Part shown: piece by piece, positions 8,413-50,586 of the stretch | How positions within the stretch are numbered: position 1 is the first letter of the stretch | How the letters are laid out: every line of letters begins with the position of its first letter | Assembly (NCBI GenBank): GCA_029568995.1 | Contig: JAKPYU010000054.1 | Location: 1 to 50,586 of the forward strand | Reading direction: 5' to 3' | From: Candidatus Omnitrophota bacterium | GTDB lineage: Bacteria; Hinthialibacterota; Hinthialibacteria; Hinthialibacterales; JAKPRU01 | DNA length: 50,586 nt | Position numbers and translations under genes: made by a program | The notes under the pieces: generated by a model | What the model was told of the DNA's origin: nothing | The model's database searches: none | The model's input: the letters and a program-made list of their open reading frames with translations, nothing else

Positions 8413-8456
8413 GAAGGTCTCTTTGTCTCTGAGGCAAGCGCCGATCCGGACTGCCA

Positions 8457-9257
8457 CTAGGTGATCCCGACGAGGTATTCGGGTGCGATAAAGAACTCCC
8501 CGTTAAGGAACCGCAATGCCTCATACGATCCTCGAAGGGTATCCAAGGCCTCATCGAGCGCGCGTTTAGACGGAAACAGACGGTGTTCGGAAGAGCAGGC
8601 TTCCAGGACACGATCTTTGGGCAGATGGAGTCCGTGATCCACAAACAGGCGGCAGATAAAGGCCAGACGGTCGCGCGTGATCGCGTCCTCCTCGCAGACA
8701 ATCACTTCCAGGAGAGGTCGAAGCACGGTCTCTCGTTCAACTGGCGTACCCGGGTCCGCATGGATCGTGATTTGGCTGGTAATTTGATTTCGAGCGAACT
8801 GGAGAAAGTGGCTTAATTGCTTATCCGAAAGTCCTTTTCGCGTTCTCGACAGGCGCTGAAGGCACAATTCCAGTGCCTGGCTCAATACGGATTCTTCCAC
8901 TGGGCGGCCATATTGGGACAAATGCAGATTCCGAAGACGCTGGGATAGTTCCTCGACAAACTCGATGATCTGGGGACAAGATAAAAAGGGGTGTTTGCGC
9001 ACAAAGGAGGTTGCTACCCAATGACTGACCGACCGATCGCTGGTCAGCCTCTCGATGACCCGATTGCGGTTGCGGGTCTCCTCCTCGGAATGGCGCATTT
9101 GGGAGGTCCTCCGTGTCGGTCCGCCTGTTCCCAACTCATGACCGGAAATACTCGGAGAATCCGGCTCTGTAACGATAGAGAGTCCTGGATGCTCCCCCAT
9201 GCTTCCCTCTGGCTGATGGACCAGTCCCGGAGCCTCCGTTTTCCCCTTCGTTACCAT
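8457..9257 (-). CDS. Unknown 266-residue helical protein
   Basis: I do not recognise this protein. The first 60 residues are polar and rich in Pro, Ser and Glu, and probably disordered. The rest is a run of predicted amphipathic helices with regular Leu/Arg spacing (for example LSQRLRNLHLSQ and LSHFLQFARNQI). There is no signal peptide or membrane segment. An AAAGG lies about 6 bases before the ATG, so the start is well supported. Its stop touches a possible GTG start of the radical SAM gene, and both share an orientation, so a function tied to that enzyme is reasonable but unproven. Confidence 0.7.
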   Translation of the reverse strand: MVTKGKTEAPGLVHQPEGSMGEHPGLSIVTEPDSPSISGHELGTGGPTRRTSQMRHSEEETRNRNRVIERLTSDRSVSHWVATSFVRKHPFLSCPQIIEFVEELSQRLRNLHLSQYGRPVEESVLSQALELCLQRLSRTRKGLSDKQLSHFLQFARNQITSQITIHADPGTPVERETVLRPLLEVIVCEEDAITRDRLAFICRLFVDHGLHLPKDRVLEACSSEHRLFPSKRALDEALDTLRGSYEALRFLNGEFFIAPEYLVGIT

Positions 9258-11571: not shown

Positions 11572-11652
11572 GAACAGCGACGGAATCCCATCTTGGAAGT
11601 GCATGGAACAATCTGGTACAATTCGATCTACATTATGGAGACATGGGGACCT

Positions 11653-21681: not shown

Positions 21682-23130
21682 TTACTCCGCTCCGGCCGTC
21701 CCTTTTGGCTTCTTCGGCTCTGAGGGAACATCCTCCGCATTGGTTGAGGGCAGCCATTTCTGTAGATCTGCCTTGATGGCCGTGTATTGCGGATCTCCGG
21801 CGAGATTGGTCCATTCCAGGGTATCCTTGGAATGGTCGTACAGTTCCTCGGTCTTGTCGGAGTACTGGATATATCGCCAGCGGGCGGAACGGACGGAGTG
21901 ATTGTTCCGACCGTGTGTCGTTAATGCGGGCCGGTCCCACGGCGTGTACGGATTTTTTAGTAATGGAAGAAGGCTGACGCCCTCCAATTCCGGCTTTTTA
22001 TCCAGATTGCACAAGTCGATGAGCGTGGGGTAGATATCCAGCAGGTTCACGGGAGCGTCGCACCGTCCGCCGGCAGAAGTGACACCCGGCGCAATGACCA
22101 TGAGGACATTATGAGTGGCTTCCTCCCAGAGTGCGAACTTGCGCCAGTGGAGTTTTTCGCCCAGATGCCAGCCATGATCGGACCACAAGACGATGATTGT
22201 GTTGTCGCGATATGCGCTTTCATCAAGCGCCTGGATTACGCGACCGACGCATTCATCCATGAAGCTGATGCTGGCAAGATAGGCCTGGACGGCCTTTCGC
22301 CACTGGTCGTATTTGATTACGTTTGCATGGTCCTTTTCTGGTTTCGCCATGCTCTTTCCGATGGGGGGAACATCGTCCAGATCGTCGTCCTTTACAATGG
22401 GTAATGTAATTCCGTCCAGCGGGTACTGCTCGAAGTATTTCGGCGGAACATACCAGGGCAGATGAGGACGGAAGAACCCACATGCCCGGAAGAACGGCGT
22501 GTCGTGTTTTTTGCGGAGATGTTCGATTGTGCGGTCTGCAACCTGCCAGTCGCCCATTTCGAACGGGCTGACATCGACCGGTCCCCAGTCGAAATGTGCG
22601 GCGTCGGGGATGCCGTTCAGAGGGAGTTTGTCTTCGGGAGGCGTGGGATCATCGGGTCGGCTTTTTGTCTGGGATGGCCAGTAGTCCATCCAGGAAGGGG
22701 GATCGAGAAAGGCATCATGGTAGATCTTTCCCGCGCCGGTTGCGGAATATCCGTGCGCCATGAAATGTTGAGGGATCGTGACTACATCCTTGAGAATTGC
22801 GCTCTTTCGCCAGGGCTGGCTGTTATGGTAGACACCGGAAGTAGCTGGGCGAATGCCGGTCATCAGGGCAGCACGGGACGGATTACAGGCGGGTGCGGCG
22901 CAATAGGCGCTTGTGAACAGGACTCCCCGCGCGGCCAGGGCGTCCAGGTTGGGTGTCTTGACATCGGGATGCCCGCCGAGGCAGCCGATCCAATCGTTGA
23001 GGTCGTCTATTGCGATGAACAGAACATTCGGCTTTGAGGTTCCATCGGGGCCGGCTTGTAGCCGAATCGGTCCCGCAGTCAGGGCGGCCATTCCGGTTCC
23101 GGCTACTTTCAGGAAATCGCGACGTTTCAT
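21682..23130 (-). CDS. Tat-exported sulfatase (iduronate-2-sulfatase-like)
   Basis: This 482-residue enzyme begins with a twin-arginine signal (MKRRDFLKVAGTG, hydrophobic to about residue 20). The sulfatase consensus CNPSR is at 82-86; C82 is the residue converted to formylglycine. Metal-binding D42/D43 lie in FIAIDDLND, and SDHGWHLGEKLHW and related segments complete the alkaline-phosphatase-like fold. Overall style (LGGHPDVKTPNLDALA, NLLDIYPTLIDL) is that of iduronate-2-sulfatase relatives, which remove sulfate from glycans in the periplasm. The substrate is inferred. It needs a separate formylglycine-generating enzyme, which is not in the window. The beta-propeller gene ends 16 bases upstream. 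Confidence 0.93.
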   Translation of the reverse strand: MKRRDFLKVAGTGMAALTAGPIRLQAGPDGTSKPNVLFIAIDDLNDWIGCLGGHPDVKTPNLDALAARGVLFTSAYCAAPACNPSRAALMTGIRPATSGVYHNSQPWRKSAILKDVVTIPQHFMAHGYSATGAGKIYHDAFLDPPSWMDYWPSQTKSRPDDPTPPEDKLPLNGIPDAAHFDWGPVDVSPFEMGDWQVADRTIEHLRKKHDTPFFRACGFFRPHLPWYVPPKYFEQYPLDGITLPIVKDDDLDDVPPIGKSMAKPEKDHANVIKYDQWRKAVQAYLASISFMDECVGRVIQALDESAYRDNTIIVLWSDHGWHLGEKLHWRKFALWEEATHNVLMVIAPGVTSAGGRCDAPVNLLDIYPTLIDLCNLDKKPELEGVSLLPLLKNPYTPWDRPALTTHGRNNHSVRSARWRYIQYSDKTEELYDHSKDTLEWTNLAGDPQYTAIKADLQKWLPSTNAEDVPSEPKKPKGTAGAE

Positions 23131-29528: not shown

Positions 29529-31001
29529 TTACCGGCGCGTGACCAGACGTAAAGCAAGCCAAGCGTCCGACAAAAGAGACCGCAGCGACCTGGCATGTCG
29601 CAGTCTCCACCAAACCTGCGACGGACGAAGGTAAAAACGCCGATACGCCTGGTCGACCAGCCGGTTCAACCGTTCCCGCGAAAGATGAGGATAGGACACG
29701 ATACTTTTGCGAAACGGATTGATCGCGTCGTCTTCATCGACCAGGAAACCCTCTCGGCACGCCTGTTCATAGAACGGCGTTCCTTTGAAAGGGGTTGCGA
29801 CAGTGAACATGACATGGTGTACGTCCAAATCCAAGAGCGTGTCCACCGTATGACAAATGTTTTCCTCCTGCTCAAGCGGGCATGTGCCGAACATGATGTT
29901 GATCTTCGGCTCGATGCCGTAACGTCGCAAAAGAGAGATGGACCGGTAAATGGTTTCGACTTTCAGGTCCTTATGAATCGCATCGAGAATCGGTTGTGAA
30001 AAAGTCTCCACCCCGATGTCAATTGTCACACATCCTGCTGCACTCAAAAGCCGGACAATTTCTTCATCAACAAGATAATCCGAGCGCGACAAGCATCCCC
30101 ACTGGAGATCGAGCGACCGCAGCCCGTCGCATATTTCTTTTGTGCGGGACCGTCCCCCGAGGAATTGATCGTCCATGACCATGACGGCCCGGTAACCCGC
30201 CTCGGCGATTTCGCGGAACTCCGCGATAACCCGCGCCGGTGAAGCGAATACGGCGGGAGGTTTCTCTCCGGGATGACAGCGCACGTATTCCAGTTCCCGC
30301 GCGAAACTGACGGAATTCGGGACACAGAATGCGCATCGCCACCGGCATCCACGCGACGCCAGGATGGTCGCAACAGGGCGAACGGAGAATTTCGGATTGA
30401 ATAAGGCTCTCTTGTGTCTTTGGACGGCCGGATGGCGGTGGTGGGTGAAGGGAAGGTTGTCCAAATCGACGAACTGCTCGCTATGCGGTGTTTCGCAGAT
30501 CTCTCCGTTGCGGACATAGGAAGCGCCGATCGGCTCCCCTGTGGCAAGATAATCGGCGACATGCCTTTCCGGTTCTCCCCGGAAAACCAGAACCCGACCC
30601 TCGGAGATTTGCGGCGGGATCGCTCGCAGGTATTCCTCCGGGACCCGTGTCGGCTCAGGGCCATGGAAGAAGATTCGAGCCTTCGGGGCACACTCCAGCA
30701 ACAGGGGCAAAACGGCCAGGTCGGTGGGCTTGGCGAGAATGACCGAGTGCAACACAACAACATCCGGGTGCCAGTCTGCCACTCTCCGCAAGAACTCATC
30801 TCGGGAGAACCGCTCCAGAACGGCATTGATCAGATCCACCTCATGCCCCCGGCCTTCCAGGTATGACATCAGGTACAGTTGTGCCAGATCGGGCAGCGGA
30901 TACAGCATGTAGGTGCATCCGGCGAAGCGTTCCGGAATCCTGTAACGATCCAGCGGGGGAGGTTCCGCGAAGAGGATCCGTTGAGGGGATGTGGTTGTCA
31001 T
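29529..31001 (-). CDS. B12-binding-domain radical SAM protein
   Basis: This 490-residue protein has an N-terminal cobalamin-binding-type domain (about 1-160, with DVVVLHSVILAKPTD and GEPERHVADYLATG) and a radical SAM barrel with C219, C223 and C226 (CRWRCAFC). Its substrate is unknown. In this kind of protein the pair of domains often methylates or rearranges unactivated carbon atoms in lipids or hopanoids. The usual cobalamin DxHxxG motif is not evident, so real B12 use needs proof. It lies 51 bases after the next upstream radical SAM gene and 11 before the SPASM gene. Confidence 0.88.
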   Translation of the reverse strand: MTTTSPQRILFAEPPPLDRYRIPERFAGCTYMLYPLPDLAQLYLMSYLEGRGHEVDLINAVLERFSRDEFLRRVADWHPDVVVLHSVILAKPTDLAVLPLLLECAPKARIFFHGPEPTRVPEEYLRAIPPQISEGRVLVFRGEPERHVADYLATGEPIGASYVRNGEICETPHSEQFVDLDNLPFTHHRHPAVQRHKRALFNPKFSVRPVATILASRGCRWRCAFCVPNSVSFARELEYVRCHPGEKPPAVFASPARVIAEFREIAEAGYRAVMVMDDQFLGGRSRTKEICDGLRSLDLQWGCLSRSDYLVDEEIVRLLSAAGCVTIDIGVETFSQPILDAIHKDLKVETIYRSISLLRRYGIEPKINIMFGTCPLEQEENICHTVDTLLDLDVHHVMFTVATPFKGTPFYEQACREGFLVDEDDAINPFRKSIVSYPHLSRERLNRLVDQAYRRFYLRPSQVWWRLRHARSLRSLLSDAWLALRLVTRR

Positions 31002-31052: not shown

Positions 31053-32519
31053 TCATGTACGCGCCGGGTTGTGTGTGCTCCGGTCGTTTTCGGGTTTCGA
31101 CAGTTTGCCTGACCGTCGAAGCGCCAGCGCAGACCGAACCGCCCCCCAGATGAAACGGGGTGACGGATGCCGGATTGCACGGGCCGCATAGTCGATCCAA
31201 ATTCGCGGCTGTTTATAGAACTCACGGAGCAGCCGCGAGTGCCACGCGCGAAGATCCTCCTTCGTTAATCCATGGGGCACAAAGGCCGGTTCTATGAGGT
31301 TCATGCAAGCCCAGTCATTGTCCATTGTTCCGTACAACGACGCTTCCTGAGACAAGGGCGAGCCGGGGAATGGAGTCATGCACATCACGCTCACGTCCGA
31401 CAGAGGCAGCCGGTGCATGAGTTCATCTGTCTGCTCCAGCGTCTCGATGGTTTCGCCGGGACTGCCGACGATAAAGAAGCCTTTCGCCCGGATTCCGGCA
31501 CGACGCGTGATGCGAACGGCTTCCTCAATCTGGGCGAGAGTGATCCGTTTCCCCAGCCGGTCCAGGATCGCCTGAGAGCCGCTTTCGATACCGAACGAGA
31601 TGTGCCAGCAGCCTGCCCGGCGCATGAGATCGAGAAGATCCGGCTTGACCAGGTCCACGCGGCTGTTACAGGACCATGAAAGGCGGAGATTGGATCGGAT
31701 CAACGCCTCGCAGATTGCCTGAAGCCGCCGAGGGAGAAGCATGAACGTATCATCCTCAAATGTGAGATCTCGAATCCGATAGTCGGTTACCAGATGTCGG
31801 ATCATCTCCAGAAGGTATTCCGGCGAATAGCCGCGCACGCGATCACCGAACACGCTCGTATCGCAGAATATGCATGTGTACGGGCAACCCCGTGAGGTCA
31901 CCAGCGATGTGGAAGGAAGACGCCGGACTTTGAAATAGGGTGGGTTGTACGCCTGTGGAAATCCCGATAACAGATCCCATGCGGGAAACGGGAGCGAGTC
32001 CAGATCGACGATGGTTTCGCGATTCTCTGTGCGGATTATCTTGCCTTGAGAGTCCCGATACACGATTCCCCTTACCTTCGACAGATCCCCTCCGTCGATC
32101 AAAACGCCAAGAAGATCGGGCAGTGTCTGCTCCCCCTCGCCGATTACCGCGACATCGAAGTGATTGCCGCTCTGAAGGGTTTGTTCGGGGACCGCGGTGG
32201 CGTGAGGCCCTCCAATCAGCACCGTGAGATCGGATCGGCGGTCCTTTAGTTCTTTGGCGAATTGCTGCGCCGGGAGAACCGATAAGGTTGTTATGCTCAA
32301 CCCGACAATCCGAGGTCCAAGGGCCTCGACTCGGTTAAGCGCCTGCTGGAATGAGAGGTTCTCGGCGGAAGCGTCCAGGACAGAGACGCGACGTCCCCCG
32401 GCGCGAACCACGGCGGCTAGAGTTAAAATCCCCAAAGAGGACGCGCCGCTGCCGGCACCCGATAGATCTCCGTATCGTTGCTCCATGCTGCAGGGAGGTG
32501 TCATCAATAGAAGATCCAT
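31053..32519 (-). CDS. B12-binding-domain radical SAM protein
   Basis: This 488-residue protein begins with a cobalamin-binding-type domain (1-140: GASSLGILTLAAVV, GLSITTLS, VLIGGPHATAVPE, VIGEGEQTLPDLL) and a radical SAM domain with C212, C216 and C219 (CPYTCIFC). The barrel includes FEDDTFML and FGIESGSQAILD, common in this family, and FFIVGSPGETIETL further on. It is the first gene of the leftward operon of three radical SAM proteins and a GT2. Substrate unknown; lipid or glycan modification is suggested by the neighbours. Confidence 0.9.
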   Translation of the reverse strand: MDLLLMTPPCSMEQRYGDLSGAGSGASSLGILTLAAVVRAGGRRVSVLDASAENLSFQQALNRVEALGPRIVGLSITTLSVLPAQQFAKELKDRRSDLTVLIGGPHATAVPEQTLQSGNHFDVAVIGEGEQTLPDLLGVLIDGGDLSKVRGIVYRDSQGKIIRTENRETIVDLDSLPFPAWDLLSGFPQAYNPPYFKVRRLPSTSLVTSRGCPYTCIFCDTSVFGDRVRGYSPEYLLEMIRHLVTDYRIRDLTFEDDTFMLLPRRLQAICEALIRSNLRLSWSCNSRVDLVKPDLLDLMRRAGCWHISFGIESGSQAILDRLGKRITLAQIEEAVRITRRAGIRAKGFFIVGSPGETIETLEQTDELMHRLPLSDVSVMCMTPFPGSPLSQEASLYGTMDNDWACMNLIEPAFVPHGLTKEDLRAWHSRLLREFYKQPRIWIDYAARAIRHPSPRFIWGAVRSALALRRSGKLSKPENDRSTHNPART

Positions 32520-39560: not shown

Positions 39561-41087
39561 ATGGACACCGACGCAAAAATCAGGAATCTGGAAGACCTCG
39601 CCGACCTGCTGATCTCCGTTCGGCAAGAAGGCAAGAAGATTGTGCATTGCCATGGTGTCTTCGATCTGCTGCACATCGGTCATATCCGTCATTTCCGACA
39701 AGCCAAGAGCTACGGCGACGTGTTAGTGGTGACGATCACTCCGGATCGATTTGTGGACAAAGGCCCCGGGCGCCCGGCGTTCTCACAGGATCTCCGCGCG
39801 GAGGCTGTGGCTTCGGTGAACGAAGTGGATTACGTATCGATTAACGCTTGGCCTACGGCGGTGGAGACACTCAGACTTCTCAGGCCGCATTTCTATGCCA
39901 AAGGCTCCGAGTTCAAAGGTCCTCAATCGGATTATACGGGCAAGATCGACAAAGAACTGGAAGTGATCGAAGAGATCGGCGCCCAGGTTGTGTTTACGGA
40001 AGACATTGTTTTCAGTTCCTCGAACCTGATCAATCGATTTCTCTCGTGCAGGCCCGATGAGGTTCAGGAGTATCTGGGTCTTTTCCGTCAGCGTTACAGC
40101 ATCGAATACGTTCACGATGTCCTGAACAGGATGGGTTCGCTCAAGGCCCTCGTCATCGGGGATGCGATCCTCGACGAGTATCAGTACTGTGAAACCATCG
40201 GCAAGTCGAACAAAGACCCTGTGTTGGCGATGCAGTTTCGGTCCAGTGACCTATTCATCGGCGGCGCGCTTGCGGTGGCCAACCAGGTTGCCGGGTTCGC
40301 CGGGGAGGTCAAGCTGGTGACGCTGCTTGGCGAACAAGAAAGTCACGAAGGATTCATCAGAGAGAATCTTCATTCGAAGGTTGTCCCGCATTTTGCCGTG
40401 CGGCCCGGCGCCCCCACGCTGGTTAAGAAACGTTTTTTGGATGGATATTCATTCAACAAATTACTCGAGATCTATATTATGGGCGACTCGGATCTTCCCG
40501 AAGAAACGGATGCCGACTTGTGCCGCCGGATGAAGGAAGAGGTCTCGAAATACGATCTGGTGATTGCGGCGGATTACGGTTATGGAGCCATCGGTCGGCG
40601 GATGGTCGATACGCTCTGTGAGAATGCGCCGTATCTGGCCGTGAACACCCAGTCCGGCGCCGGGAACCGGGGTTTTCATACGGTGAGCCGCTATTCCCGT
40701 GCCGACTTCGTCTGCCTGAGCGAGCAGGATATCCGTCTCGAATCCCGCACCATGGGCGGCGAGCTCAGACCCATCATGGAAAACCTGGCGGAGAGGCTTA
40801 CCTGCCCAACCATGGTTGTGACCCAAGGCCAGAGAGGATGTTCCGTAAGAAAAGGGAAGGGGAATTTTGTGGCGTGTCCGGCTTTTGCGGAGAGGGTTGT
40901 GGATCGTGTTGGTGTGGGGGAAGTGTTCTTTTCGGTGACCGCGCTGGCCGCCGTTCTTGGGGCCGAGGACGAATTGATCGGGTTCCTCGGAAACGTCGTG
41001 GGCTCCCTGGCTGTCGGGATCATCGGCAACCAGAAAGCGATAGAGAAGAAAAGTGTCGAGAAATATGTTACCTCCCTTTTAAAATAG
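39561..41087 (+). CDS. Nucleotidyltransferase-PfkB kinase fusion, HldE-like in reverse order
   Basis: This 508-residue protein fuses an N-terminal cytidylyltransferase-type domain (26-160; the HIGH signature is at 38-41 and CHGVFDLLH precedes it) to a C-terminal PfkB-family kinase domain (about 195-505). HldE of heptose synthesis has these two domains in the opposite order. The kinase half matches HldE in GDAILDEYQY and GGALAVANQVAGFAG. But the catalytic Asp of the GAGD motif is replaced: the segment reads DRVGVGEVFF, with E454 at that place. Kinase activity may be lost or altered. The product could be an activated heptose or another sugar. It is the first gene of the rightward operon. ATG 39561 is preferred to an in-frame start 8 codons upstream. 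Confidence 0.85.
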   Translation: MDTDAKIRNLEDLADLLISVRQEGKKIVHCHGVFDLLHIGHIRHFRQAKSYGDVLVVTITPDRFVDKGPGRPAFSQDLRAEAVASVNEVDYVSINAWPTAVETLRLLRPHFYAKGSEFKGPQSDYTGKIDKELEVIEEIGAQVVFTEDIVFSSSNLINRFLSCRPDEVQEYLGLFRQRYSIEYVHDVLNRMGSLKALVIGDAILDEYQYCETIGKSNKDPVLAMQFRSSDLFIGGALAVANQVAGFAGEVKLVTLLGEQESHEGFIRENLHSKVVPHFAVRPGAPTLVKKRFLDGYSFNKLLEIYIMGDSDLPEETDADLCRRMKEEVSKYDLVIAADYGYGAIGRRMVDTLCENAPYLAVNTQSGAGNRGFHTVSRYSRADFVCLSEQDIRLESRTMGGELRPIMENLAERLTCPTMVVTQGQRGCSVRKGKGNFVACPAFAERVVDRVGVGEVFFSVTALAAVLGAEDELIGFLGNVVGSLAVGIIGNQKAIEKKSVEKYVTSLLK

Positions 41088-41159
41088 GATCTTGGCGGAA
41101 GTTTTCTTCCGCATCTTCAAGTGAATTTCCATTCGATCGGCGAGGGATATAATACGGAT

Positions 41160-42155
41160 ATGAAATCGATAACTACTGTTCTGGTGACCGGCGGGGCCGG
41201 CTACGTTGGCGCGGTGCTCGTGCCGAAGCTGCTGCGAGAAGGCTACCGTGTCAAAGTGCTGGATCTTTACATGTATGGGGAAGATGTCCTGGATGAAGTC
41301 AAGGACGATCCCAAACTTGAACAAATCCAGGGAGATCTTCGCGACCGGACGCTGCTGAAAGACTGTATCCCGGGTTGCGACGCGGTGATCCACCTCGCCT
41401 GCATATCCAACGACCCCAGTTTTGAATTAGACCCGGAATTGGGCAAGTCGATCAACTATGATGCATTTCTGGCCCTGGTGGACATCTGCAGGGATTCCGG
41501 AGTGAAACGATTCATTTACGCTTCTTCCTCCAGTGTGTACGGCATCAAAGAAGAAGAGGAGGTCACCGAGGATCTGCCTCTTGAACCCTTGACCGACTAC
41601 TCCAAATACAAAGCCCTGTGTGAAGACTACCTGTGGAAGAACAAAGGAGAGATGGTGGCTCTGACCGTCCGGCCTGCCACGGTTTGCGGATATTCCCCGC
41701 GTCTGCGGCTGGATTTGACCGTCAACATTCTGACCAACCACGCGGTGAACAACAAGAGAATCAAAGTGTTCGGAGGCGAACAGCAGAGGCCGAATATCCA
41801 TATCGAAGATGTGACCGATCTGTACGTCAAGTCCCTGGAATGGCCCGACGAGTCGATCAACGGCAAGGTCTACAACGCCGGTTACCAGAATCACACAGTC
41901 CGAGAGATCGCGAATGTTGTTCGGAGGATTGTCGGGGAAGACGTGGATATTGTGACGACACTCACCGACGACAACCGATCTTACCGGGTGAACTCCGATA
42001 AGATTAAACGGGAGCTGGGATTCGCGCCAAGGCACACAATTGAAGAAGCGGTCCACGACCTGCTGGCCGCCTTCCGGCAGGGCAAGATCCCCAACTCCAT
42101 GGAAGATGAGCGTTATTTCAATATCAAGATGATGCAGGCCATCCATTTAAGATAA
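41160..42155 (+). CDS. NAD-dependent epimerase/dehydratase (extended SDR)
   Basis: This 331-residue enzyme has the Rossmann motif GGAGYVG (11-17) and the catalytic Ser and YxxxK: S122-S125 in ASSSSVYG and Y147/K151 in YSKYK. It should act on a nucleotide sugar by epimerisation, dehydration or reduction, in the cytoplasm. The family is close to UDP-glucose 4-epimerases and related enzymes; the exact reaction is not settled. ATG 41160 is chosen as the point where the Rossmann fold begins. It lies 72 bases after the fusion gene and 25 before a methyltransferase. Confidence 0.92.
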   Translation: MKSITTVLVTGGAGYVGAVLVPKLLREGYRVKVLDLYMYGEDVLDEVKDDPKLEQIQGDLRDRTLLKDCIPGCDAVIHLACISNDPSFELDPELGKSINYDAFLALVDICRDSGVKRFIYASSSSVYGIKEEEEVTEDLPLEPLTDYSKYKALCEDYLWKNKGEMVALTVRPATVCGYSPRLRLDLTVNILTNHAVNNKRIKVFGGEQQRPNIHIEDVTDLYVKSLEWPDESINGKVYNAGYQNHTVREIANVVRRIVGEDVDIVTTLTDDNRSYRVNSDKIKRELGFAPRHTIEEAVHDLLAAFRQGKIPNSMEDERYFNIKMMQAIHLR

Positions 42156-42180
42156 TCCCGTATCAAACAGGTTGACGGCG

Positions 42181-42870
42181 ATGAGAAAGAACGATTCCAA
42201 GGATCTCTGGTTATCCATCGACGAGAAAATGCGGCCCAACCCCATCCAACTGGGGCCGTATACCACGCAGGCCTACATTCAAGACCCGATTCGCATGAGC
42301 TTCATCACCTCGCGCTATAAATTCTGTGCACGGCTCCTGACGGGAAGCAAGGCTGTTCTGGAGATCGGCTGCGGCGATGGTTTTGGCGGCGCGATGGTGG
42401 CCGGGGTTGTTGAGGAACTGATTTGCACGGATATCAACGAACGCCTCCTCGCTGATAACCGCGAGAGACTGGCTGTTTTCAAGAATCTCTCTTTTCAATA
42501 CCACGATTTCCGGGAGAACCCGTTTGCCCGCCGAATGGACGCCATTTACATGATCGATACAATCGAACATCTATTCCCGGAAGAAGAGCCGGTGTTCATG
42601 ACGAATGTAACCGGCTCTCTCACCGACCACGGGGTCTGTGTCATCGGCACGCCCAATATCACGGCGGACAAGTTCGCGAATGTGTGGTCAAAAGAAGGCC
42701 ATGTCAACCTGAAAAGCCACGAGTCGCTGATGGAGCTGGGCCGAGCCTATTTTCACAATGTGTTCTTCTTTGCGATGAATGATGAAGTTGTCCACACAGG
42801 ATTTCCTCCAATGGCCCATTTTCTCTGGGTCCTCTGTGTGAGTCCGAAAAAGAACGGCACTCCGGCGTGA
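42181..42870 (+). CDS. Class I SAM-dependent methyltransferase
   Basis: This 229-residue protein has the SAM-binding motif VLEIGCGDGFGGAMVAG in the first third, the acidic CTDINERLL and the IYMIDTIEHLFPEEE catalytic-side segment. It probably methylates a sugar or lipid intermediate of the operon. Position two downstream of an epimerase fits O-methylation of a nucleotide sugar, but acceptor is unknown. A TTG start 9 bases upstream is possible; AGG lies about 9 bases before the ATG. Confidence 0.88.
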   Translation: MRKNDSKDLWLSIDEKMRPNPIQLGPYTTQAYIQDPIRMSFITSRYKFCARLLTGSKAVLEIGCGDGFGGAMVAGVVEELICTDINERLLADNRERLAVFKNLSFQYHDFRENPFARRMDAIYMIDTIEHLFPEEEPVFMTNVTGSLTDHGVCVIGTPNITADKFANVWSKEGHVNLKSHESLMELGRAYFHNVFFFAMNDEVVHTGFPPMAHFLWVLCVSPKKNGTPA

Positions 42871-42902: not shown

Positions 42903-43526
42903 ATGGGTCCAATCGGCGTTGATTTGGATAACACCATTGTGTGCTATGACGATGGTTTTTATCGTACGGCCATGGAACTCGGGCTGGTCGGCCCGGACGT
43001 GGGTCGAGGGAAGAAGGCCATTCGGGACGCCATCCGGGAGATTCCCAATGGTGAAATCGAGTGGCAGAAACTCCAGGCGGAGATCTACGGTCCCCGGATG
43101 GATCAGGCGCAGATGATTGACGGTGTGGAGAGGTTTTGCAGGGAGTGCGTCCGCCGGTCCTTACGGATTCACATTATCAGTCACAAAACGGAATTCGCCC
43201 ATTACGACCCGACCCGAACCAACCTCCGAACAGCGGCCATGAACTGGATGGATACCCACGGATTTTTTGCCTCCGACGGTTTCGGTCTCCAGCGAGACAG
43301 CGTGTTTTTTGAATCCACCCGGGAGGCCAAGATCGAGCGAATCAGGAGCCTGCGCTGTTCTCATTTCATTGATGATTTGGAGGAGACTTTTCTGGAGGAA
43401 ACCTTCCCGAACGAGGTGCACAGGATTCTTTTCGATCCCTACGGACACTATGGGCCACGTCCGGGGATGACGGTCTGCTCCTCCTGGGGGGAGATCACTC
43501 ACCACCTGTTTGACGATGCGTCATGA
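42903..43526 (+). CDS. HAD-superfamily hydrolase-like protein
   Basis: This 207-residue protein begins with the HAD motif GVDLDNTIV, with nucleophile D7 and D9. A later Lys-containing segment (HIISHKTEF) and the final DDLEETF acidic pair match motifs II and III of HAD phosphatases. Such an enzyme could remove a phosphate from a sugar phosphate, as GmhB does in heptose synthesis. Substrate is inferred. The ATG at 42903 was preferred; a GTG at 42867 overlaps the methyltransferase stop. Its stop overlaps the next start (ATGA). Confidence 0.82.
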   Translation: MGPIGVDLDNTIVCYDDGFYRTAMELGLVGPDVGRGKKAIRDAIREIPNGEIEWQKLQAEIYGPRMDQAQMIDGVERFCRECVRRSLRIHIISHKTEFAHYDPTRTNLRTAAMNWMDTHGFFASDGFGLQRDSVFFESTREAKIERIRSLRCSHFIDDLEETFLEETFPNEVHRILFDPYGHYGPRPGMTVCSSWGEITHHLFDDAS

Positions 43527-44581
43527 GCGAAACGAGCGACACAACCGAATACAGACGGCTCTTCGAGAGCCAATTGGGCGCCGATTTGAAGACGCTGGAG
43601 AGAATCGGCGCGGGGCGTAATTCCCGGGTTTACCGGCTGGTTCGCGCCGATGGGCGTTTGTGTCTGGCCAAGGTATATCACCGCCACAAAGAAGACCGGC
43701 GCGACCGCCTGGGAGCGGAGTTCGGCGGGTTGACGTTTCTCTGGCAGAACGGCATACGGGCAATCCCCGAGCCGCTGGCCTGCGATCCGGAGCATGGATT
43801 TGCCCTGTACGAATACATTCACGGCGACACAATCGAACCCCATCAAATCCGCATGGTCGATATCGACCGGGCGGTTGAATTCCTGGTTGCTCTGGAGGAT
43901 CTGAAGAGGCGGCCCAAAGCATCCGACCTCCCTTCGGCTTCGGAGGCCTGCTTCACAGTTGCCGACATTATTTCCGGCGTTCAGCAGAGGGTTGCGAGGT
44001 TATCCGAAGTTCCTGAGAACGACATTCTGGCCACGGATCTTCACCGGTTTCTGAACGAAGAATTCACGCCGTTTTTCGAACGGATCAAGTTGTGGTCCCG
44101 CTCCCGGCTGGAGAGGGCGGGCTTGAGCGTGAACCGGGAACTCCCCTTGCATGAGCGCACATTAAGCCCATCCGATTTCGGTTTCCATAATGCGCTGCGC
44201 CGTCCGGACGGGAGCCTGGCCTTTCTGGACTTCGAATATTTCGGCTGGGACGATCCGGCCAAGATGATCGTCGATTTTCTATTCCATCCCGGCATGGCGT
44301 TGTCGATGGATCACAGAAAACGGTTTTTGGATGCGATTTTGAAGCATTTCCGTGCGCTTGGGCCATTGCCCGCGCGTGTGTCGGCGGTATATCCTCTGTT
44401 CGGATTGAAGTGGTGCCTGATTCTGCTGAATGAATTTGTGCCGGTGGATTTAGCCCGGCGGGATTTTGCCGGCGGCACGCAGACAGACCTTGAGCATCGG
44501 CGGGCCGATCAGCTGGCCAAGGCGGTAAACATGATGACGGAAGTGAAGCAACGCTATGAGTCTGATTCCCTTTTCGATTGA
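43523..44581 (+). CDS. APH-fold kinase-like protein
   Basis: This 352-residue protein has the aminoglycoside phosphotransferase fold: IGAGRNSRVYRLV (28-40), the ATP-binding K50 in LAKVY, a catalytic loop SPSDFGFHNAL with D218 and N223, and the metal Asp D236 in FLDFEYFGWDDPAK. In APH proteins the loop normally reads HxD; here the His is Ser, so activity may be unusual. It may phosphorylate a sugar or lipid intermediate. It overlaps the HAD stop by four bases and the transketolase gene by 26, implying coupled translation. Confidence 0.82.
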   Translation: MSETSDTTEYRRLFESQLGADLKTLERIGAGRNSRVYRLVRADGRLCLAKVYHRHKEDRRDRLGAEFGGLTFLWQNGIRAIPEPLACDPEHGFALYEYIHGDTIEPHQIRMVDIDRAVEFLVALEDLKRRPKASDLPSASEACFTVADIISGVQQRVARLSEVPENDILATDLHRFLNEEFTPFFERIKLWSRSRLERAGLSVNRELPLHERTLSPSDFGFHNALRRPDGSLAFLDFEYFGWDDPAKMIVDFLFHPGMALSMDHRKRFLDAILKHFRALGPLPARVSAVYPLFGLKWCLILLNEFVPVDLARRDFAGGTQTDLEHRRADQLAKAVNMMTEVKQRYESDSLFD

Positions 44582-45428
44582 GAACCAGATCGGCGCGTCG
44601 ACACGGTTGGACGAACGCTCGATTCATCTCCGCCGCCGGATTGTCCGAATCCTGGAGTGCAGCCAGCGCGGGCATGTCGGAGCCACGTTCTCACTGATCG
44701 AGATCCTCCGGGTCCTGTACGACGATATCCTTCGGTATGACCCCAAGAATCCCATCTGGGGAAAACGAGACCGCTGCATTTTGAGCAAGGGCCACGGCTG
44801 CCTGGCCCAATATGTCATGCTGGCGGAAAAAGGATTTTTCCCGGAAGAGGAATTGTGGAAGTTCTGCCAGGCGGACGGTATCCTGGGCGGGCATCCGGAA
44901 GCCGGCAAGATCCCCGGCGTGGAGGCTTCCACGGGTGCCTTGGGCCATGGTCTTCCCATCGGTGTCGGGATGGCGATCCATGCCCGCTACGAAGGCTCCG
45001 ACCATCGCGTGTTCGTCGTTGTCGGGGACGGCGAGTGCAATGAAGGTTCGGTCTGGGAAGCGGCGATGAGCGCGGGCAACCGAAAGTTGTCCAACTTGTG
45101 CGTCGTAGTTGACTACAACAAGCAGCAATCCTACGATACGACTTTTGCCGTCCAGAATCTGGAGCCTTTTGAGGACAAGTGGAGAAGTTTCGGTTTTGCC
45201 GTGACTGCCGTGGACGGTCACGACATCAACGCCCTGAGAGAAGTTTTCTCAAAAGTGCCGTTGAAACCGGACCTGCCAACAACCATTCTCTGCCACACGG
45301 TGAAGGGCAAGGGAGTCGACTTCGTGGAAAACAATCTCAGCTGGCATCACAAAAGTCGCCTGAAAGAAGAAGAGATTCGCGCCCTGTACGAAGCGCTGGA
45401 AGGCTATCCATGCGGCAAACGTGCCTGA
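44556..45428 (+). CDS. Transketolase, N-terminal subunit
   Basis: This 290-residue protein is the thiamine-diphosphate-binding half of a split transketolase. It has the H40 of GHVG, the SKGHGCLAQY segment (77-86), and the ThDP motif GDGECNEGSVWEAA at 157-170, with the N188 end in VDYNKQQ. It would act with the next gene, transferring a two-carbon ketol unit between sugar phosphates. Split transketolases are normal in many bacteria and archaea. Here it lies in a nucleotide-sugar operon, so it may supply or build a long-chain sugar such as sedoheptulose phosphate; that is inferred. It starts inside the kinase-like gene (26-base overlap). Confidence 0.93.
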   Translation: MSLIPFSIENQIGASTRLDERSIHLRRRIVRILECSQRGHVGATFSLIEILRVLYDDILRYDPKNPIWGKRDRCILSKGHGCLAQYVMLAEKGFFPEEELWKFCQADGILGGHPEAGKIPGVEASTGALGHGLPIGVGMAIHARYEGSDHRVFVVVGDGECNEGSVWEAAMSAGNRKLSNLCVVVDYNKQQSYDTTFAVQNLEPFEDKWRSFGFAVTAVDGHDINALREVFSKVPLKPDLPTTILCHTVKGKGVDFVENNLSWHHKSRLKEEEIRALYEALEGYPCGKRA

Positions 45429-46339
45429 ATTCCGTTTACGAGTTGGCCAAGAAGGACGACCGAATTTTCTTTGTCGGTTCGGACCTGGGTTCCGGGACTC
45501 TCCAGGAATTCCGCAAGGAGATCCCGGACCGCTTTTTCATGGAAGGCGTTAATGAAGCGCACGTCATCGGAATGGCTTCCGGCCTGGCTCTGGAAGGGAA
45601 GATCGTTTATGTGAACACCATCGCCACATTTATCACCCGGCGCTGTTTTGAGCAGGTGGCCCTGGACCTGTGTATGCACAACGTCAAGGTCCGCCTCATC
45701 GGGAACGGGGGTGGTTTGGTGTACGCGCCCCTGGGACCGACCCATCTGGCTTTCGAGGATATCGCCATTCTCCGGGCGCTGCCGAACATGACCATCGTGG
45801 CCCCGGCGGACAGGGATGAAATGCGGCGGCTGATGCCCCAAACCGTTGAATGGCCTGGGCCGATGTATATTCGCCTGGCCAAGGGATTTACCGATCCGAT
45901 CGTCACCACCGACGACATCCCGTTTGAGATCGGCAAGAGCCTGCCGATGCGAAAGGGCAAGGACGCGCTGATTGTTACCACCGGGATCACCCTGAAACTG
46001 GCGCAGACCGCTTCCGAAATCCTGAGCGGGGACGGGATCGAGGCGGCTATACTCCATATACCCACGATTAAACCGCTGGATTCCGCCGCGGTCCTGAATT
46101 TGGCCTCATCCGTGAACGCCATCGTGACTGTCGAGGAACACAGCATCGTCGGCGGGCTGGGCGCGGCGGTGGCGGAGATTCTGGCGGAAGCCGGATTCGA
46201 CACGCCGAAGCGTTTCAAGCGGATCGGGATCCCGGATACATTCCCGGATCAATACGGTACCCAGGACAGCCTGATGGCCCGCTATGACATCACCGCTGAA
46301 ACCATTACCTCGACATTGAGGGAGTTTTTGACACATTGA
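45410..46339 (+). CDS. Transketolase, C-terminal subunit
   Basis: This 309-residue protein is the pyrimidine-binding half. The catalytic Glu is E49 in EGVNEAH, followed by GPTHLAFED (109-117). A C-terminal domain follows with VEEHSIVGGLGAAVAE. It starts inside the N-terminal subunit gene (19-base overlap), with AAGG about 7 bases upstream, so equal amounts of both subunits are likely. Length is normal for split forms. Confidence 0.93.
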   Translation: MRQTCLNSVYELAKKDDRIFFVGSDLGSGTLQEFRKEIPDRFFMEGVNEAHVIGMASGLALEGKIVYVNTIATFITRRCFEQVALDLCMHNVKVRLIGNGGGLVYAPLGPTHLAFEDIAILRALPNMTIVAPADRDEMRRLMPQTVEWPGPMYIRLAKGFTDPIVTTDDIPFEIGKSLPMRKGKDALIVTTGITLKLAQTASEILSGDGIEAAILHIPTIKPLDSAAVLNLASSVNAIVTVEEHSIVGGLGAAVAEILAEAGFDTPKRFKRIGIPDTFPDQYGTQDSLMARYDITAETITSTLREFLTH

Positions 46340-46387: not shown

Positions 46388-47050
46388 ATGGGTCGCTTGA
46401 TGAACATTATCACCCCGCTTCACAAAAGAACGGCCAGGAAATACATCGACCGGATGGTCGATGACAAGGTCCACTGCATGCTCAAAGCCAAAGAGTATGA
46501 ATTCGACTACTGGGACGGAGACCGGCGTTACGGATACGGCGGCTACAAATATGACGGCCGCTGGAAACCCGTTGCCCAACAGTTTATCGATATTTACGGT
46601 CTGAAACCCGATTCCAAAGTCCTGGACATCGGCTGCGGTAAGGCGCATATTATTCACGAGATGAAACAGATTCTGCCCAAGGCCGAGATTATCGGCTTTG
46701 ACATTTCCCGCCACGGGATCGGCGATGCTCCGGAAGGGATTCGGGATCATTTATTCCGATACCGCGCCCAAGACCGGTATCCCTGGGGCGACGACTATTT
46801 CGACCTGGTGATCTCCCTGGGCTGTTTCCACAATCTGCGCATTTTCGAACTGGAGACGGCTCTCCAGGAGATGGAACGGGTCGGCAAGCAAAAATATCTC
46901 ATGCTCGAAAGTTATCGAAACGAGCAGGAGTTGTTCAATCTTCAGTGCTGGGCATTGACCGCCGAATCGTTTTTCGATACCGCCGAGTGGATCTGGCTGT
47001 ATCGTCATTTCGGCTACACCGGCGATTACGAATTTATCTATTTTGAGTAA
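46388..47050 (+). CDS. SAM-dependent methyltransferase
   Basis: This 220-residue protein has the SAM motif VLDIGCGKAHIIHEM, then the acidic IIGFDISR and the DLVISLGCFHNL catalytic region. The N-terminal 60 residues, rich in Tyr and Asp, resemble no other I know. It is the second methyltransferase of the operon and is likely to act on the same sugar. AGGAGG precedes the ATG at normal distance, so the start is secure. Confidence 0.87.
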   Translation: MGRLMNIITPLHKRTARKYIDRMVDDKVHCMLKAKEYEFDYWDGDRRYGYGGYKYDGRWKPVAQQFIDIYGLKPDSKVLDIGCGKAHIIHEMKQILPKAEIIGFDISRHGIGDAPEGIRDHLFRYRAQDRYPWGDDYFDLVISLGCFHNLRIFELETALQEMERVGKQKYLMLESYRNEQELFNLQCWALTAESFFDTAEWIWLYRHFGYTGDYEFIYFE

Positions 47051-47064
47051 CCATGAGGGACATT

Positions 47065-48120
47065 ATGCAGATCGAGACAATGAAGGCGGCCATCCTGGTG
47101 GAGCAGCGGAAGCCGCTCGAAGTGGCCGAAATCAAACTGCCGAAGGAACTCGCGTTCGGCCAGGTGCTGGTGAAGATCCACTACAGCGGCATCTGCGGCG
47201 CACAGATTAACGAGATCGACGGAGCCAAGGGACCGGACAAGTTTTTGCCCCACCTTCTGGGGCACGAAGGTTCGGCGACGGTTTTGGAGGTGGGACCGGG
47301 CGTCAAGACCGTCAAGCCGAACGACCGGGTGGTAATGCACTGGCGTCCGAGCGACGGCCTTCCGTGCGAACCGCCAAAATATGATTGGAACGGACGCACG
47401 GTCAATGCCGGATGGGTGACCACGTTCAACGAATACGCCGTCGTATCCGAGAACAGGCTGACGGCCATCCCCCAGGATTTCGATCTCAAACTGGGGCCGC
47501 TGTTCGGCTGCGCCGTGACAACCGCCATCGGCGTGATCAACAATGATGCGCAGGTCAAGATCGGGCAGTCGGTTGTGGTTTTCGGAGTCGGCGGAGTCGG
47601 TTTGAACATCGTACAGGCGGCGCAGATGGTGTCGGCTAATCCGATTATCGGCATAGATATTCTGGACTCCAAACTGGAGATGGGCAAACGGTTCGGCGCG
47701 ACACACGGTTTCAATTCAACGAAGACCAATGACCTGGATGGGGAGATTCGCCGGATTGTCGGCGAGCGTGGTGCGGATGTGGTGATCGACACGACCGGGA
47801 ACGCCCGTGTAATCGAACGGGCCTATGAGCTGACCCATCCCGACGGAAAGACCATTCTGGTCGGTGTGCCGAGGAAGGTGAAAGAGAATTACGTGTCCAT
47901 TTACACGCTGCCGCTTCATTTCAAGAAAGTCCTGACCGGCTCTCACGGCGGCAGCGCGGAACCGCACATCGAAATTCCGCGCTATATCAACCTGATGCGG
48001 GCCGGAAAGATGACCCTGGACGGACTCATCACGCACGAATTCCGCCTCGACGACATCAACCAGGCGATTGAGCTGGTACGGAGCGGCGAAGCCGGACGGG
48101 TTGTGGTGAAGATGGATTGA
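47065..48120 (+). CDS. Zinc-type medium-chain alcohol dehydrogenase
   Basis: This 351-residue MDR enzyme has the catalytic zinc ligands C44 (SGICG), H67-E68 (GHEG) and C149 (FGCA), and the nucleotide loop GVGGVG (174-179). The four cysteines of the structural zinc are missing, unlike many alcohol dehydrogenases. It would oxidise or reduce a sugar alcohol or carbonyl with NAD(P). ATG 47065 is preferred because GAGGG lies five bases upstream; an ATG 12 bases earlier lacks one. It follows the methyltransferase closely. Confidence 0.9.
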   Translation: MQIETMKAAILVEQRKPLEVAEIKLPKELAFGQVLVKIHYSGICGAQINEIDGAKGPDKFLPHLLGHEGSATVLEVGPGVKTVKPNDRVVMHWRPSDGLPCEPPKYDWNGRTVNAGWVTTFNEYAVVSENRLTAIPQDFDLKLGPLFGCAVTTAIGVINNDAQVKIGQSVVVFGVGGVGLNIVQAAQMVSANPIIGIDILDSKLEMGKRFGATHGFNSTKTNDLDGEIRRIVGERGADVVIDTTGNARVIERAYELTHPDGKTILVGVPRKVKENYVSIYTLPLHFKKVLTGSHGGSAEPHIEIPRYINLMRAGKMTLDGLITHEFRLDDINQAIELVRSGEAGRVVVKMD

Positions 48121-48166: not shown

Positions 48167-50083
48167 ATGGTCAGAAAAATCATAGGGTCTTTTCTGTCTC
48201 GACTGGCTTCGGCGTTTGCGGCGAATCCGGCTGATCGTGAGGTTGTTGATCCGGCCGGGAGCCAATCGGAGAGTTCTCTCGGTGCAACCGGTTCTCTTCA
48301 GATTCCCTGCCGGGAACTCGCGGACAAGTATTTTCAGATCGGATTATCCAACGTAGAGAAGGAGTCTTTTGAGGCGGCGGCCGTGGCATTTGAGGCGGCG
48401 CTGGAATTTGACCCGGCTGACCATGGAGCCTGCCACTATTTGGGTTTTTGCCATTTCAAATTGGGGCTGTACGAGGACGCGATCCGATTATTCAACAAGG
48501 CCGTTGAAATAGGACCGGGCAACCCGGATTATTCTATTTCGATCGGCGATACTTACATGGTAATGGGGAGGTATGAGGATGCCGTGAAATCATTCGAACG
48601 AGTTTTGGAAGCCAAGCCGGATGACGGTTTAACCCACGCCAAAAATGCGCAGGCCCTCATGGAACTCAATGCCCTGGATAAAGCGTGGGAGTATGTCTGC
48701 CGATCCATTGAACTGAATCCGAGCGCGTATGCGGAGGAGGTCAAGAAAGACATCCTGTCGCGGCGGCAGCATTCAAATAGGCCCGAGACGACTAATCTTG
48801 GTCACGCACTGGACGCACAGGGCCACAATATAGCGACCGCTGAGCAGGGCGAGAGGCAAGATTCAGGGATCAACCATGGCCTGTCGCGCGTGTATGGCGA
48901 TCTGGACGAGGTCGAGCGCTTCCTCAACGATGCGAGTACAATTATCACCGATCTCTACAAGGCGAATCCCAACGACGAGAGAGTTCGATCTGCATTGGCA
49001 AGGGTGCATTGGAAGGCGGGGCGTTTGCATCGGGCGGGAGCGGCCCTGGCATACTTCGAGACAAACAGCCCCGATAACCCACACTACCGCCTAATGCACG
49101 GTCAGATTCTCAAATCCCAAGGAAGGTGGGCAGAAGCCCTAGAGGAGTTCAAGCACGTTTGGAGGATAGCCCCCATGACTAAGGAGCTCTATCACGAGAT
49201 CTATGTCACCGTGATAGCCCTCGGCAAGCATGACGAATTGACCGATATTTTTGACAAGGCTTTGGAATTGGGGGTTTTCGCCGACGCGCCACTGGGTGCG
49301 TACAATCAGAGCTTCCTGACTGCCAGCAAGGAGTTCCAACGGCACCAGGAGGAGGCCATCGCACGTGGGATACCTCCCATCATCATCAATGCCCAGCCGC
49401 GAAGCGGAAGCACCTATTTGCAGTATGCCATTTCAGATGGATTGAACATTCCTGGTTGTTACATCTGTGCGGCAACCCACACATATCACGCCCGCATGAT
49501 GCCGACCGCGGCGAAGCTTTTCGCCCGAGGCGGCGCCGTGTTCCGCCCTCACTGGATCGCCACTCCGGAGTTGTTTGCGGACATGAGGAGATTCAACCTG
49601 AACAAGATCCTCGTCAGTATCCGTGACCCGCGAGACACTTTTCTCTCCAAGACGAGCAAATACGAACGTCTCCTGGGCGAATCAAACTGGCTTTCTGAAC
49701 TCCAACTATCCGCTTATCCTCTACCAGCCGGGAGTCAAGGCGAATGGCAGCAAACAGCATTCAAAGGCAGCTTGGAGATAGATATCCAGCTCATAGAAAG
49801 CTGGATTGTCGCTTCCCAGGAACAGGACGACATCAAAATCCTAATTACAAAGTATGACGATCTCATCATGGATGAGAAGGCCGTTATTGATCGGATTCTA
49901 GAGTTCCTTGAGATAGACCGCGATCAGTTCTCTTGGGATAAGGTTCCAGACAAGAAAGACACGCCTTATTTCTATCGTGGGAAGTCGCAGGTGTGGAGAG
50001 AACACCTCAGTGATGGGGACCGCGAGTTGGCGTGGTCCTTAATGACACCACTTGTCAAGGAGTACCTGAATCTGGAGCCGTAG
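48167..50083 (+). CDS. TPR-sulfotransferase fusion protein
   Basis: This 638-residue protein has TPR-like repeats in residues 50-200 and 240-395, then a sulfotransferase domain (about 403-638). The PAPS-binding loop is at 410-418 (QPRSGSTYL) and the 3'-phosphate motif is RDPRD at 486-490. It would transfer sulfate from PAPS to a sugar or protein, with TPRs placing the acceptor. No PAPS-making genes are in the window. The start is firm: AGGAGG lies 7 bases upstream. The second half uses more AGG, ATA and CTA codons than the neighbours, which may mark a different origin. Confidence 0.88.
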   Translation: MVRKIIGSFLSRLASAFAANPADREVVDPAGSQSESSLGATGSLQIPCRELADKYFQIGLSNVEKESFEAAAVAFEAALEFDPADHGACHYLGFCHFKLGLYEDAIRLFNKAVEIGPGNPDYSISIGDTYMVMGRYEDAVKSFERVLEAKPDDGLTHAKNAQALMELNALDKAWEYVCRSIELNPSAYAEEVKKDILSRRQHSNRPETTNLGHALDAQGHNIATAEQGERQDSGINHGLSRVYGDLDEVERFLNDASTIITDLYKANPNDERVRSALARVHWKAGRLHRAGAALAYFETNSPDNPHYRLMHGQILKSQGRWAEALEEFKHVWRIAPMTKELYHEIYVTVIALGKHDELTDIFDKALELGVFADAPLGAYNQSFLTASKEFQRHQEEAIARGIPPIIINAQPRSGSTYLQYAISDGLNIPGCYICAATHTYHARMMPTAAKLFARGGAVFRPHWIATPELFADMRRFNLNKILVSIRDPRDTFLSKTSKYERLLGESNWLSELQLSAYPLPAGSQGEWQQTAFKGSLEIDIQLIESWIVASQEQDDIKILITKYDDLIMDEKAVIDRILEFLEIDRDQFSWDKVPDKKDTPYFYRGKSQVWREHLSDGDRELAWSLMTPLVKEYLNLEP

Positions 50084-50132: not shown

Positions 50133-50586
50133 ATGAGATGTGAATCAGGCCGGATCACGATGATCATCGGTTCGGACAGCATGATTGGAGGTGCGGTGAT
50201 GGCGCACCTGGAACATGCGTTGGAACCGGTTGTCGGCACATATTTTCTTCCCGAAAGTTCGGGGAAGAACCGAACCTACCTGGACCTGTCCCGGGATTTG
50301 TCCGGCTGGCGTCCGGACCGGCCCGTCCGGGTGGCGTACCTCTGCGCCGGAGTAACGAAATTGGAGGACTGCCGACAGGACCCGGCCGGTTCCGCACGCA
50401 TTAACGTCGGCGGAACCGTCGCGGTTGCCAAGGCGCTGATTGAACAGGGCGCATTTGTTGTATTTCTCTCCAGCAACCGGGTGTTTGACGGCTCCCGGCC
50501 TCATGTCGAGCCTGACTCCGTTCACTGTCCCGTGACCGAATACGGGCGCCAGAAGGCCGAGACCGAACGAATCCTCCGCCAGTGGG
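50133..50586 (+). CDS. RmlD-like NDP-sugar reductase (partial)
   Basis: The frame starts at ATG 50133 and runs off the edge with no stop, giving at least 151 residues. It shows a Rossmann-like GSDSMIGGAV, the SSNRVFDG segment typical of dTDP-4-keto-rhamnose reductases and the YGRQKAE catalytic YxxxK. It should reduce a 4-keto nucleotide sugar in the cytoplasm, though rhamnose itself is not proven because rmlABC are not in view. AGGA lies 7 bases before the start. It continues the rightward operon after the sulfotransferase. Confidence 0.8.
   Translation, partial: MRCESGRITMIIGSDSMIGGAVMAHLEHALEPVVGTYFLPESSGKNRTYLDLSRDLSGWRPDRPVRVAYLCAGVTKLEDCRQDPAGSARINVGGTVAVAKALIEQGAFVVFLSSNRVFDGSRPHVEPDSVHCPVTEYGRQKAETERILRQW

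Follow-up and report, generated by a model that had tools for sequence, protein, structure and literature searches.

A split transketolase with a rebuilt substrate site in a widespread sugar-operon cassette

An operon on contig JAKPYU010000054.1 of a Candidatus Omnitrophota bacterium encodes a transketolase (TK) that is divided between two chains: TKN, the thiamine diphosphate (ThDP)-binding half, and TKC, the pyrimidine-binding and C-terminal half. We analysed the whole stretch of 50,586 nucleotides, hereafter the window, together with relatives of the pair in other genomes. Judged by its sequence, the pair belongs to the split transketolases. It is very probably a paralogue dedicated to the glycan or sugar operon in which it lies, and we class it as a variant whose specificity site appears changed rather than as a transketolase of the pentose phosphate pathway. 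The reading that we favour, held tentatively and a little short of an even chance, is that it adds a two-carbon (C2) ketol to a nucleotide-activated ketosugar, giving a branched sugar.

Both halves are recognised by Pfam, and all three TK domains exceed their cut-offs (22 bits for Transketolase_N). TKN scores 157.9 bits against Transketolase_N and 28.6 bits against E1_dh, which sets it apart from the E1-alpha/E1-beta sequence type. A sequence-only reading of this DNA had described two split-TK genes overlapping by 19 bases in a nucleotide-sugar operon, preceded by a kinase-like gene and followed by a methyltransferase and a dehydrogenase. The Pfam domains and the start shared with orthologues confirm the pair, and the neighbours are also as described. 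TKC starts at the ATG at 45410, where its orthologues begin, and stops at 46339, so that the overlap spans 45410-45428; the open reading frame (ORF) listed from 45179 merely reflects the longest-ORF start of that frame. The TKN and TKC frames are free of stops, with GC3 of 0.70 and 0.74, respectively. The pair is not a chance feature, since many phyla contain orthologues of the pair beside the same genes.

Residues were aligned to E. coli TktA and are given in E. coli numbering. The ThDP, metal and catalytic residues H26, H66, H100, D155, E160, N185 and H261 of TKN match those of TktA, as do E411, F437 and H473 of TKC; this full set is the same in the window pair and in more than 90 relatives. 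The substrate site, on the other hand, is rebuilt. Five positions, the RSFHR motif, orient the substrate phosphate in TK (PMC11659671). We mapped them by residue order to R358, S385, F434, H461 and R520 of E. coli, the position of S385 being anchored by its ungapped distance from D381. In the window TK, RGIGK replaces RSFHR and D469 becomes leucine, whereas RSFHR is found both in E. coli and in the other TK of this genome. RGIGK with leucine at 469 occurs in 73 of 83 core proteins. R91, the salt-bridge partner of D469, is a cysteine in the window TKN and in 80 of 94 proteins, and I189 is replaced by serine in the window TKN. H461 and S385 of TK have been linked to the phosphate of natural substrates, and E. 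coli TK mutants at S385, D469 and R520 have been evolved toward non-phosphorylated, aliphatic, aromatic and bulky aldehydes (PMC3657141, PMC5073344).

In a FastTree phylogeny of a thinned sequence set, a single clade with an SH-like support of 0.979 unites the proteins with I/L/H-F-G at positions 434-437-461 (42 of 42) and separates them from the canonical split TKs. Another split pair, with the motif LSPSK/L, lies beside sugar kinase and transporter-like genes (L049:4630-7921) and is probably catabolic.

The same assembly contains a second split TK (contig C616), which is canonical, with identities to the window pair of 42% (N) and 35% (C). Also encoded there are an E1-beta-like protein (C44) and an enzyme of the DXS type (C292). 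A housekeeping role for the window pair was rejected because of this second, canonical split TK. A further TK is present in 13 of the 15 other cassette genomes, in one case as a fragment only; in the remaining two, both metagenome-assembled, the only matches outside the cassette were DXS/E1-like. The earlier suggestion of a TK dedicated to a nucleotide-sugar operon is supported by these further TKs.

To place the pair in its genomic setting, 84,980 species genomes were scanned with aligned C-halves, which gave 304 related places. Locus counts refer to the best 80 of these (56-72% identical), 56 of which have enough flank and are called full loci; being nearest relatives by design, they describe gene order in their own clade and not in TKs at large. 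Genes in related loci were called mechanically, and two antisense shadow families, c15 and c24, were dropped as artefacts. By their record titles, the best 80 places belong to about 17 phyla. Among these are Desulfobacterota, Acidobacteriota, Cyanobacteriota, Omnitrophota, Planctomycetota, Verrucomicrobiota, Nitrospirota, Elusimicrobiota, Bdellovibrionota, Myxococcota and others, and, among archaea, Woesearchaeota. A record titled Klebsiella pneumoniae (L178) is a metagenome bin, whose name is probably wrong for this cassette.

Gene order is strongly conserved. TKN stands immediately upstream of TKC in 55 of the 56 full loci, with the APH-fold kinase gene immediately upstream of TKN in 52. The gene for the HAD-fold protein (HAD) is present in 44 and lies upstream of APH in 42, and the methyltransferase gene MT2 follows TKC directly in 42. 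A sugar-nucleotide short-chain dehydrogenase/reductase (SDR), here EPI, is encoded in 49, a fusion protein resembling HldE in 48, a GmhA-like SIS protein in 34 and the methyltransferase MT1 in 23. The slot after MT2 is taken by a zinc dehydrogenase (present in 30 of the 56), a radical-SAM (S-adenosylmethionine) protein (11) or family c25 (8), and the zinc dehydrogenase never shares a locus with rSAM-B or c25 (Fisher p = 5e-5 and 1e-3). APH and HAD are both missing from three full planctomycete loci. Reduced planctomycete cassettes, such as L213, read HldE-EPI-TKN-TKC-MT2-MT1 with one glycosyltransferase-like gene between, and have no SIS, HAD or APH. In a separate search of 386 genomes, relatives of the HldE-like protein were found in 26 and of MT2 in 22, from many families.

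The sequence-only reading had held that a pair serving as the sole TK amid randomly varying neighbours would speak against dedication; over the 56 full loci, the neighbours do not vary at random. The cassette is best explained as a mobile one for a single unusual surface-glycan sugar. Two further observations concern its surroundings. On plasmid pDCAR1 of Solidesulfovibrio carbinolicus (L226), one polysaccharide cluster holds two split TK pairs: a canonical-like pair, which lies near FabG and PseF genes, and a pair of the changed type. An ArgZ-like/deoxyhypusine-synthase-like Rossmann-domain protein recurs beside the HldE-like gene (L120:9271-10359 and others; 11 of the 56 full loci).

In the window, the genes from the HldE-like fusion to RmlD (Table 1) are separated by 33, 16, -4, -4, -26, -19, 48, 2, 46 and 49 bases, the APH gene overlapping TKN by 26. 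They likely form a single operon, because the gaps run only from -26 to 49 bases.

Table 1. Genes of the putative operon, with positions in the window.
Feature	Position	Strand	Remarks
HldE-like fusion	39561..41087	+	nucleotidyltransferase then PfkB kinase; ORF possibly from 39537; CTP_transf_like 45.4, PfkB 36.4 bits
EPI, sugar-nucleotide SDR related to Cj1427-type C4-dehydrogenase	41121..42155	+	best PDB match 6vo6, 164.7 bits
MT1, SAM methyltransferase	42172..42870	+	Pfam Methyltransf_25
HAD-fold phosphatase-like protein	42903..43526 (ORF listed from 42867)	+	AlphaFold fold match, no Pfam match
APH/choline-kinase-fold small-molecule kinase	43523..44581	+	Pfam APH 34.2 bits
TKN, ThDP-binding half of split TK	44556..45428	+	290 aa; Transketolase_N 157.9 bits
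TKC, pyrimidine-binding and C-terminal half of split TK	45410..46339	+	309 aa; Transket_pyr 95.6, Transketolase_C 92.7 bits
MT2, SAM methyltransferase, cassette marker gene	46388..47050	+	Pfam Methyltransf_31 60.8 bits
Zinc alcohol dehydrogenase	47053..48120	+	ADH_zinc_N 87.3 bits
Tetratricopeptide-repeat (TPR) protein with C-terminal sulfotransferase domain	48167..50083	+	Sulfotransfer_1 31.5 bits; outside conserved core, downstream
RmlD-like SDR, truncated by window end	50133..50585	+	RmlD_sub_bind 48.8 bits

The HldE-like fusion has the reverse domain order of E. coli HldE and fails the HldE equivalog (139.6 against a cut-off of 521), as well as its domain models (109.6 against 345, 84.3 against 181.5). 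Its PfkB catalytic GxGD motif reads GVGE in the window (40890-41000) and GxGD in all 48 other aligned relatives, so the kinase domain of the window copy may be impaired. The nearest PDB sequence relative of EPI, which retains Y-x3-K, is a distant one, 6vo6, which we take to be Cj1427. Cj1427 oxidises GDP-heptose at C4 (PMC10680097).

The HAD protein, without a Pfam match, is modelled by AlphaFold with a pLDDT of 95.7; its best fold match is the deoxyribonucleotidase-like protein 3bwv, and the motifs D-x-D-N-T, S-H-K-T and D-D are conserved. The APH model (pLDDT 93.3) is nearest in fold to APH(9)-Ia and the choline kinase LicA, with conserved catalytic motifs. From these motifs and models, HAD appears to be a working phosphatase and APH a working kinase; PDB sequence searches with them gave weak or no matches, and the folds indicate general classes only. 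Elsewhere in the window, we noted three B12-binding radical-SAM proteins upstream (7117-8457, 29529-31001 and 31053-32519), a heparinase II/III (11593-13755), a sulfatase (21682-23130), an H+-pyrophosphatase (16767-19007) and a phage-type integrase (1539-2720).

The company kept by HldE-like genes is informative on the reaction. Twenty-seven HldE-like loci, the window and others mostly from an HldE-seeded search, were inspected for a ThDP pair within the retrieved stretch. A two-chain ThDP enzyme is encoded in 20 of them: 11 of the window TK type, 5 E1-like, 2 with both and 2 of a third type. This is far above chance, given a background of 3% per locus that we estimated roughly. Pairs resembling pyruvate dehydrogenase E1-alpha/beta are seen beside HldE-like genes at L121, L125, L132, L133, L134, L135, L116 and L144, where they apparently replace the TK pair, L133 and L135 having both. 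Members of the third type (L118:10123-11422 and L137:13748-15083) have a C-half of only about 165 aa. E1-like pairs have been implicated in two-carbon branching of nucleoside diphosphate (NDP)-4-ketosugars in paulomycin, and this has been proposed for everninomicin (PMC4802897, PMC10338323). Furthermore, a plasmid of Paenibacillus cellulosilyticus (L228:5097-7927) encodes a homologue of TKN as a fusion with a sugar-nucleotide SDR. TKC comes next, and alongside are rfbF and rfbG, whose products make a CDP-4-ketosugar.

We propose the following pathway. An NDP-heptose-type sugar would come from the HldE-like enzyme together with a GmhA-like isomerase whose gene lies elsewhere, and the Cj1427-like dehydrogenase would convert this sugar to its 4-ketone. 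The TK pair would then place a two-carbon ketol on the 4-keto carbonyl, yielding a hydroxyacetyl-branched (or extended) sugar, which the zinc dehydrogenase would reduce and MT1 and MT2 would methylate; APH and HAD might perform accessory phosphorylation and dephosphorylation steps. We favour C2 transfer onto an activated sugar because ThDP pairs accompany HldE-like genes, EPI is Cj1427-like and the Paenibacillus fusion joins TKN to an SDR; the rebuilt phosphate site, the cassette of about 17 phyla, its single clade and the frequency of EPI also count towards it. The broader proposal, a TK subfamily transferring hydroxylated C2 ketols to nucleotide-activated ketosugars to give hydroxyacetyl-branched sugars, with its cassette across bacteria and some archaea, is more tentative still.

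Several points weigh against this pathway. The characterised transketolases that we know of use aldehydes, and not ketones, as acceptors. The window pair keeps R358 and a positive residue at 520, so that its substrate may yet be anionic or phosphorylated. The kinship of EPI with Cj1427 is distant, and, with the GVGE change, the NDP-sugar step may be impaired in the window copy or supplied from elsewhere. The roles of APH and HAD are left unexplained by it, though three planctomycete loci do without both.

The strongest competitor, which we nonetheless consider rather unlikely, has the TK acting early, in the order given by the sequence-only reading. It would join the C2 ketol to a special aldehyde, and the resulting unusual ketose phosphate would be isomerised by SIS, phosphorylated at C1 by the HldE-like kinase, relieved of its distal phosphate by HAD in the role of GmhB, and activated by the HldE-like transferase. 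SIS, HldE-like and HAD genes (34, 48 and 44 of the 56 full loci) do mirror the GmhA/HldE/GmhB series, APH could phosphorylate the acceptor, and an aldehyde is what canonical TK takes. However, SIS is not diagnostic of the TK step, since it accompanies the HldE-like gene also without TK (6 of 7 such loci); therefore, the TK need not feed the isomerase. The minimal planctomycete cassettes (HldE-EPI-TKN-TKC-MT2) dispense with SIS, HAD and APH, the sugar-phosphate head-group site is gone, and the TKN-SDR fusion sits in a cluster already making a CDP-sugar. The higher-carbon or branched product suggested earlier agrees with the rebuilt active site, while activation before the TK step fits better than the order then proposed, possible as that is. 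The earlier view that the route is non-standard for want of GmhA does not hold: besides the SIS genes of the full loci, a SIS and PfkB pair is encoded elsewhere in the window's own genome. The sulfation envisaged with it depends on a single, non-conserved TPR-sulfotransferase.

It is less probable again that the target of the pair is not a nucleotide-sugar but, for example, a cyclitol, an alditol or a lipid head-group, or that the pair builds a non-sugar decoration from an atypical donor such as hydroxypyruvate. The kinship in fold of APH with choline and spectinomycin kinases and of HAD with nucleotidases would suit such a substrate, as would the several radical-SAM alternates of the cassette; the HldE-like, Cj1427-like, C-methyltransferase and glycosyltransferase genes constantly alongside argue otherwise.

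It is not certain that the contig belongs to this genome, because the assembly is a draft of 807 contigs with 7.2% contamination; in addition, HldE-like and MT2 genes were not found in either congener in the search of 386 genomes. A binning contaminant, with a cassette foreign to this organism, is nevertheless improbable: GC runs from 0.52 to 0.58 along the window with no break, and a genome of the same order has a related cassette (L041). The gene identities would be unchanged in either case. Most improbable is an ordinary TK copy that boosts sedoheptulose 7-phosphate for heptose synthesis, for although HldE-like and GmhA-like genes are close by, the coordinated change from RSFHR/D to RGIGK/L with that of R91 is absent from the genome's second TK, and the cassette is kept in genomes that already have a TK; standard heptose supply as sole role is disfavoured by the same active-site changes. 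A split TK pair directly 3' of a GmhA-like SIS gene does exist at L040:8257-10700, in an apparent Kdo/lipopolysaccharide-type region.

To our knowledge, the split TK of Carboxydothermus hydrogenoformans is not known from a sugar operon. This enzyme, the best PDB match of both halves (238.7 and 199.5 bits), has the same two chains, domain split and ThDP/catalytic residues; unlike the window pair, it retains the H461 and D469 equivalents in the alignment of the two. It is a conventional transketolase in vitro (PDB 6yaj, 6yak; PMC7661550). SqwGH, the 6-deoxy-6-sulfofructose transketolase, is likewise a split TK specialised through its RSFHR head-group set, which is reported as RAFDR (PMC11659671). 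It differs in being catabolic and in its substitutions, the window pair having RGIGK and D469L; no sulfoquinovose genes were recognised in the window. Paulomycin Plm8/Plm9 and everninomicin EvdU5/EvdS3 are, like the window pair, ThDP enzymes; they lie beside NDP-4-ketosugar enzymes, as the window pair would if the Cj1427-like EPI makes a 4-ketosugar. They and YerE (yersiniose) transfer acetyl from pyruvate and are of E1 or acetolactate-synthase types, whereas the window pair, of the transketolase family, would donate a hydroxylated ketol; the likeness is one of proposed function only. We know of no set of TK, HAD, APH, MT2 and zinc dehydrogenase in GDP-heptose modification of Campylobacter jejuni. 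That pathway (Cj1427 and partners, PMC10680097) shares the heptose kinase/nucleotidyltransferase logic, and its C4-dehydrogenase is a distant relative of EPI.

Among the literature on TK in O-antigen and polysaccharide clusters, no open-access paper on the cassette was found, subscription papers lying outside the search. Few enzymes are known to us that form carbon-carbon bonds in nucleotide-sugar pathways. If C2 transfer is true, the cassette would represent a carbon-carbon bond-forming branch of nucleotide-sugar biosynthesis for which the open-access literature searched held no description. For biocatalysis, nature has apparently altered S385, D469 and R520, the very positions at which engineers released E. 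coli TK from phosphorylated substrates, plus H461 and F434. Cultured carriers are at hand for glycan chemists in Solidesulfovibrio carbinolicus DSM 3852, Crocosphaera watsonii WH 8501 and Geothrix limicola. Altogether, a widespread cassette with a re-tooled TK points to surface sugars that are possibly uncatalogued.

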